Below, piece after piece: positions 47,443 to 47,960 of a stretch of 64,000 nucleotides of DNA. Each line of letters opens with the position of its first letter. Position 1 is the first letter of the stretch. The DNA comes from Thauera linaloolentis 47Lol = DSM 12138 (GTDB taxonomy: Bacteria > Pseudomonadota > Gammaproteobacteria > Burkholderiales > Rhodocyclaceae): assembly GCF_000310205.1 (NCBI RefSeq), contig NZ_AMXE01000010.1, positions 1 through 64,000 of the forward strand, written 5' to 3'. A program made the translations under genes and the position numbers. Under the pieces are notes generated by a model. It did no database searches. It worked only from the letters and a program-made list of their open reading frames with translations, and was not told the DNA's origin.

Positions 47443-47521
<79 letters not shown>

Positions 47522-47584: not shown

Positions 47585-47960
47585 AAAAGGAAGCACGCCT
47601 GCCGGGACTGCAGACGTGACGATGGGGACCGAAGTCCCCATCGGCTGTCTTGGGTTACAAGGCTTCAGCGGCCCCGGCAGTGCTTATGCAGCGACTGCGA
47701 AACGCTCATCGTTGGCGTTTGTGGTTTTGCGCGGATTACGTCCGTCGCCTCTCGGGTTGCCTGCGCACCTTTGCCCGCCCTGTCGAAACCAGTACACCCC
47801 CACCCAAACACACTAGCGACAGCATGAAATGCACTTGGGTGGAGGTGAGGGGAATCGAACCCCTGTCCAGAACGCCTCCGGGTTGCCGGAATTACAACCA
47901 TGGGCGCTATGGTACGCAGACAGGCGGCGGCATTCAATAGCCCCGACCTGCCCTGTCCCG
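47585..47960 (-). ncRNA. ssrA: Circularly permuted (two-piece) tmRNA
   Basis: On the minus strand the acceptor piece comes first (about 47960-47841): T arm AGGGG-TTCGATT-CCCCT, acceptor strand CACCTCC (47847-47841) and A47840. After a 38-nt spacer (47839-47802) the coding piece starts GGGGGTG (47801-47795), then TACTGGTTTCGACAGGG and the tag. The acceptor strands pair across the two pieces, as does an 8-bp P2 helix (47762-47769 with 47911-47918). CCA is not encoded (CCC instead). A C(UUCG)G hairpin (47621-47642) and a closing helix (47673-47685 with 47591-47606) lie in the coding piece. Outer ends are approximate. tmRNA rescues stalled ribosomes. Confidence 0.92.
47684..47716 (-). CDS. tmRNA proteolysis tag reading frame (ANDERFAVAA)
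   Basis: The frame GCC AAC GAT GAG CGT TTC GCA GTC GCT GCA TAA encodes ANDERFAVAA. It starts at a GCC resume codon and ends with the AVAA tail recognised by ClpXP-type proteases, close to the betaproteobacterial ANDERFALAA type. It is decoded only during trans-translation and has no independent start. Confidence 0.92.
   Translation of the reverse strand, partial: ANDERFAVAA

Follow-up and report, generated by a model that had tools for sequence, protein, structure and literature searches.

On the reverse strand of a 64,000-nucleotide stretch of Thauera linaloolentis 47Lol DNA (the window, to which all coordinates refer), the parts of a tmRNA gene lie in an unusual order. This raises the questions of whether the locus is the working ssrA of this genome, how a tmRNA would be made from it, and how the permuted form came to be spread as it is among related bacteria.

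A permuted tmRNA gene of the betaproteobacterial kind

Both Rfam and ARAGORN recognized a circularly permuted tmRNA gene at 47594-47950 on the minus strand. The covariance search with a betaproteobacterial permuted model, which had been proposed in the initial annotation, gave a full-length match to beta_tmRNA (RF01850, model positions 1-331; 285.9 bits, E 6.1e-92, cut-off 84). The locus was also matched by tmRNA_permuted (RF04321; 169.1 bits, cut-off 47), and ARAGORN called a tmRNA* at 47593-47929 with the tag ANDERFAVAA, a frame of the usual AND...AA kind. The features of the locus and its surroundings are as follows.

47617..47950, minus strand: permuted tmRNA gene (ssrA); full-length Rfam beta_tmRNA match, ARAGORN
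47838..47900, minus strand: acceptor piece with P2 strand, T arm, 3' acceptor strand, discriminator A and encoded CC; Rfam and parse, ends inferred and 5' end approximate
47864-47848, minus strand: T arm; Rfam and parse
47847-47841, minus strand: 3' acceptor strand CACCUCC; Rfam and parse
47840, minus strand: discriminator A; parse
47837..47839, minus strand: CCC in place of mature CCA; sequence
47828..47840, minus strand: 5' arm of the precursor extension, ACCCAAGUGCAUU; 13 contiguous pairs, covariation
47802..47814, minus strand: 3' arm of the precursor extension, AGUGUGUUUGGGU; pairing, covariation
47802..47836, minus strand: intervening segment of 35 nt after CCC; presumed from the family to be removed in maturation
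47617..47801, minus strand: coding piece, starting with the 5' acceptor strand; Rfam and parse
47801-47795, minus strand: 5' acceptor strand GGGGGUG; Rfam and parse
47684..47716, minus strand: tag frame ANDERFAVAA and stop; ARAGORN
47594..47618, minus strand: terminator-like hairpin of 9 pairs, then a T-rich tail; pattern match only
47909..47937, minus strand: weak promoter-like hexamers TTGAAT / TACCAT, 17 nt apart; read by eye
47443..47521, plus strand: tRNA with anticodon CAU and encoded CCA; ARAGORN, called tRNA-Met

The initial annotation had placed the T arm and 3' acceptor strand 5' of the 5' acceptor strand and tag, all on one strand, and ARAGORN, Rfam and our motif parse returned this same order. 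Its identification of a permuted tmRNA is likewise borne out, with sequence, ARAGORN, Rfam and the family relatives in agreement, and its two end coordinates, near 47840 and 47801, are correct. A second, conventional T arm 3' of the tag, named there as a finding that would speak against permutation, was absent from the ARAGORN and Rfam output. The acceptor helix has 7 bp (GGGGGUG with CACCUCC), including a G3-U70 pair next to a discriminator A73; G3-U70 and A73 are the elements that confer alanine identity.

The founding paper on betaproteobacterial two-piece tmRNA is said to be that of Sharkady and Williams (2004). Sections of the reviews PMC3985003 and PMC3968760 describe this RNA (RF01850). 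Judged by its sequence, the Thauera locus is an ordinary member of this described family: it shares the gene order, full-length model match, tag type and tRNA-like domain, and no difference beyond the range of the family was found, its long stem and missing A recurring in 34 of 50 family genes. With permuted tmRNA generally (RF04321) it shares the permuted order and, presumably, the cut between the acceptor strands. The passage of PMC3978253 on this subject holds that the alpha, beta and cyanobacterial permuted forms evolved independently.

On one side, ssrA is flanked by rpoD and the CAU-anticodon tRNA, and on the other by a nitronate monooxygenase-like gene (PF03060); rpoD, dnaG, ubiG and gph were here and below named by eye from their sequences. 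The position of the tRNA beside rpoD resembles that of ileX in Escherichia coli, and the tRNA may be a tRNA-Ile2.

A long precursor stem with covarying pairs

An extension of the acceptor helix into the spacer had been noted in the initial annotation. It does exist, but has 13 extra pairs rather than four, giving 20 bp instead of 11: ACCCAAGUGCAUU with AGUGUGUUUGGGU prolongs the 7-bp acceptor uninterruptedly, G-U pairs included. The spacer, put at 38 nt, measures 39 nt between the acceptor strands, of which 35 nt follow CCC.

At least 13 such pairs arose in 9 of 1,000,000 shuffles of the 39-nt Thauera segment. The predicted fold energy of 141 nt was not significantly low (z -1.41; 19 of 200 shuffles as low), and since energy alone is unremarkable, comparison has to make the case for the stem. 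Across 34 family loci, that of Thauera included, 382 of the 408 cells in the first 12 pairs held standard pairs; with partners swapped, the mean was 329 and the maximum 358. Several stem positions vary on both sides; position 4, for instance, is T-A in 15 loci, C-G in 12, G-C in two and unpaired in five. The shuffles and the covariation together rule out a chance inverted repeat.

The 3' end and a proposed route of maturation

The earlier observation that the 3' end reads CCC and that CCA is non-encoded was upheld in refined form. As A-CCC and not CCA follows the acceptor strand, at least the terminal A must be added, and with ACC encoded it alone is strictly needed. According to the legend of Figure 1 in PMC11915505, permuted tmRNA genes do not always encode CCA at this position. 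By comparison, CCA was encoded by all 37 tRNAs inspected (30 genome loci, the tRNA in the window and six neighbours) out of 53 matches in the Thauera genome. This genome has two PF01743 genes over cut-off (CCA-adding/poly(A) polymerase class), RNase III (216.4 bits, over cut-off) and SmpB (PF01668, 199.2 bits, on contig C35). RNase Z, searched for with the single model TIGR02651, stayed at 37.3 bits, below the cut-off of 292.95.

What is established about the processing of tRNA and tmRNA leads us to infer the following route. A single transcript would contain the T arm and 3' acceptor strand, then the hairpin spacer, then the 5' acceptor strand and tag, its two pieces joined in the precursor by the 20-bp stem. 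RNase P would cut before G1 (47801), cleavage or trimming on the 3' side would leave ACC or the discriminator as the end, and a CCA-adding enzyme would supply the missing 3' end. With the encoded ACCC held in a helix in the precursor, and RNase Z not recognized, we propose that the long helix may be opened first, possibly by RNase III, with RNase P and 3' exonucleases finishing afterwards; this step is a guess, to which we give somewhat less than an even chance. As in the rest of the family, the mature tmRNA would be in two pieces, which would remain paired and, once alanylated and bound to SmpB, rescue stalled ribosomes.

The portion of PMC6581868 that deals with the permuted tmRNA of Hodgkinia, whose intervening sequence measures 129 nt, states that reads indicate the addition of CCA to each of the two pieces. 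On that account, both RNAs have an intervening sequence with complementary sequences, and CCA is added after processing in Hodgkinia, as it presumably is in Thauera; the difference is that Hodgkinia has a degenerate endosymbiont genome and its intervening sequence is 129 nt long.

The locus is probably the working ssrA of this genome

Could the permuted gene be a decayed or silent copy, with the work done by a standard ssrA missing from the assembly or by some other rescue system? The assembly is in 220 contigs, one permuted gene of the family lacks its acceptor piece and two genomes hold both forms (see below), all of which would suit this explanation. The weak consensus promoter also counts against a working gene: a scan for consensus promoters returned no promoter-like site at 47909..47937. 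Many relatives have TTGAAA and CATAAT at the position of the Thauera hexamers. As to the terminator-like hairpin, three such patterns occur in the region, counting both strands, where shuffled sequences had a mean of 1.0.

Against decay, the locus retains an intact T arm, acceptor pairing and tag, and all three sampled genomes of the genus have the permuted gene. Standard tmRNA (RF00023) has no match over its cut-off of 47 in the Thauera genome, which is rated 99.99% complete; the permuted locus itself scored 33.3 bits and the best match, 36.4 bits, lay on a tRNA. A second tmRNA was considered and dropped, as the sole other RF01850 match listed (19.9 bits) sits on a tRNA cluster, which leaves one strong tmRNA locus in this genome. 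We consider a decayed copy very improbable, and put at about 0.94 the probability that the locus is the genome's working ssrA, of the permuted beta kind and matured and processed as proposed.

Two precursor designs among relatives

A permuted gene over the RF01850 cut-off was found in 50 of 121 genomes of the family (Rhodocyclaceae). In a separate draw across the order, 7 of 10 family genomes had one, against 6 of 290 genomes outside the family. The script parsed 47 of the 50 family genes, and two more (L045 and L047), read by hand, have CCA and 4 nt. The precursors come in two designs. In 34 genes there is no CCA (the triplet being CCC in 15, CCT in 15, CAG in two and CCG in two) and 24-48 further nucleotides extend the covarying stem; 15 others encode CCA without an extended stem, followed by 4 nt in 14 cases and by 24 nt in genome G112. 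These 15 genes count against the stem as a general need.

The remaining gene, L051 (G022:C112:427-704), lacks the T arm and 3' acceptor strand, which may be an assembly fault; genome G022 has no standard tmRNA over cut-off.

A general rule that an encoded CCA excludes the long stem is valid in the family sample (34 versus 15 genes) but fails elsewhere. Both features occur together in three genes of other families (L269, L272 and L273; four of the six permuted genes outside the family were parsed) and in 5 of 58 viral permuted genes, which are described below.

A patchy distribution on the host tree

Standard tmRNA over cut-off was found in 68 family genomes. These include G010 and G111 and exclude G093, where the 47.2-bit match lies on the genome's own permuted gene; two more standard genes, in G021 and G077, are cut at contig ends. 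G010 (contigs C87 and C3) and G111 (C163 and C7) have both forms, the standard one on a short contig, which may reflect either coexistence or contamination.

The two forms were mapped onto a host tree of 120 genomes, built from RpoD and DnaG (two neighbouring genes, by a quick search that flagged long branches). For this count G010 and G111 (both forms), G099 and G119 (form not assigned) and G090 (no RpoD) were left out, and G022 was scored as permuted despite its missing acceptor piece. A minimum of 18 form changes was needed for the 48 permuted and 68 standard genomes, compared with a mean of 37 and a minimum of 29 with shuffled labels. When genomes with both or unassigned forms were coded as not standard, the count was 21, of which 17 changes are forced by branches with good support, and a 38-genome subset (37 assemblies of at most 10 contigs plus that of Thauera) gave 7 changes, 6 of them forced. 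The forms are mixed even within genera, G039 being standard and G088 and G120 permuted in one, G017 permuted and G074 and G113 standard in another. The three Thauera genomes, all permuted, are placed among standard ones.

Signs of transfer in trees and neighbourhoods

Such patchiness could arise by vertical descent from one family ancestor, if that ancestor had both forms and many losses followed. The two genomes with both forms are in keeping with this, though on short contigs with contamination possible, and the permuted tmRNAs keep some host signal: their distances correlated with host distances at r 0.18 for 46 genes, a value matched or exceeded in 9 of 2000 permutations. This agreement is poor, however, next to r 0.61 for 18 standard tmRNAs, and random sets of 18 permuted tmRNAs ranged from 0.04 to 0.35 (5-95%). 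The permuted tmRNA tree comprised 46 of the 47 script-parsed genes, and these rows rejected the host topology (lnL difference 702, AU p 7e-6); the 18 standard rows also rejected it (lnL difference 79, p 3e-4), the two differences not being directly comparable in size.

Gene neighbourhoods were compared with 18 of the 68 standard loci. Of these, 17 share an upstream neighbourhood (ubiG-gph, with protein-level similarity of the flanks), which was found at only 14 of 47 permuted loci, upstream at seven and downstream at seven. The gph gene itself lies upstream and co-oriented at 13 of the 18 standard loci and near 9 of the 47 permuted ones (4 co-oriented, 5 convergent). Judged by gph alone, the neighbourhood in common would have looked narrower than the 14 of 47 loci found here, and this difference adds weight to vertical descent. 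In Thauera, a gph orthologue could not be placed, the best match having 31% identity. Taken with a minimum of 18 form changes among the hosts, the evidence makes vertical descent unlikely, although we give it appreciable weight.

Alternatively, the gene may have been permuted several times independently within the family. In the tmRNA tree there are two separated sets, one of them consisting of 8 rows that all have CCA and a 4-nt segment (100/100), and the four permuted genes co-oriented beside gph stand at the usual place of ssrA. Against this, a single model, with the same order, fits all of the 50 family genes that exceed the cut-off, the 46 aligned genes share the promoter region, where conservation among them starts, and the genes of G010, G020, G029 and G112 encode CCA yet group with the other set. 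Repeated permutation appears distinctly improbable, and less probable than vertical descent.

Plasmid and viral copies

Permuted tmRNA genes over the beta_tmRNA cut-off were found on two plasmids. That of Cupriavidus plasmid NZ_CP017753.1, typed as non-mobilizable (L292:7968-8285; 231.7 bits), has CCT and a long stem; the other is on the conjugative Pandoraea plasmid NZ_CP011518.2 (L293:7925-8279; 131.6 bits). The plasmid gene table, which holds no RNA genes, lists no gene at either position.

In IMG/VR, 107 stretches matched the junction pattern, and 58 of the 80 that were fetched (L294-L373) were judged to be permuted tmRNAs. Of these, 46 have CCT and 48 have at least 12 uninterrupted extra pairs. 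Three bases in each arm of the stem are dictated by the junction pattern; beyond these, 207 of 216 cells pair in 24 distinct segments, against a maximum of 191 with partners swapped. When 18 viral loci were scanned with Rfam, 14 exceeded the RF04321 cut-off and 11 that of beta_tmRNA. A search with the CCA/4-nt signature gave no viral match, and a stricter family T-arm pattern was found in one viral contig. Among deposited phage records there were only short T-arm matches, in 13 records, all of Synechococcus phages or cyanophages. The viral tags are varied (e.g., ANDSRFALAA and ANDEKFLMAA), and loci L302 and L350 lie within long tRNA arrays.

In an unrooted tree, two of the viral copies (L308 and L371) are placed within the set from the Rhodocyclaceae. 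On the L308 contig there are genes for a terminase small subunit and a DNA methyltransferase; the methyltransferase next to L371 is 85% identical to the latter. Five proteins from these two contigs were found beside no bacterial permuted locus, the flanks searched being mostly 1.5 kb.

Phages are known carriers of tmRNA: part of PMC9004378 reports that 53 of 133 unique structures from 402 phages were judged two-piece, and the relevant text of PMC7162821 that huge phages carry tmRNA and SmpB. Like the phages of PMC9004378, the viral contigs found here bear a permuted ssrA; the form set out in the pertinent part of that paper is alphaproteobacterial, whereas here two viral copies lie within the Rhodocyclaceae set.

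A gene that may travel

The patchy spread and the close copies on phages and one plasmid suggest that the gene moves between bacteria. Overall, we read the locus as an ordinary two-piece tmRNA gene that has probably been horizontally transferred many times. A more specific reading is that permuted ssrA of Rhodocyclaceae is a mobile cassette of about 350 bp from promoter to terminator, carried by phages and plasmids and repeatedly displacing the resident one-piece ssrA, with the CCA-less, long-stem version as the travelling form shared with phages. Since the host tree is small and several genomes are metagenome assemblies, we place this reading at about even odds. We make no claim that either the transfer or the CCA pattern is unpublished.

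With the relatives of the Thauera ssrA, the reasons for the origin and spread of two-piece tmRNA become testable. Should the permuted gene indeed travel and displace a nearly universal housekeeping RNA, a core gene of translation quality control would be subject to mobile-element traffic, and the long stem without an encoded CCA may then represent a way of processing that suits new hosts. The long-stem precursors without CCA and the 4-nt precursors with CCA would together offer a natural experiment on the cutting of permuted pre-tmRNA where RNase Z is not recognized.
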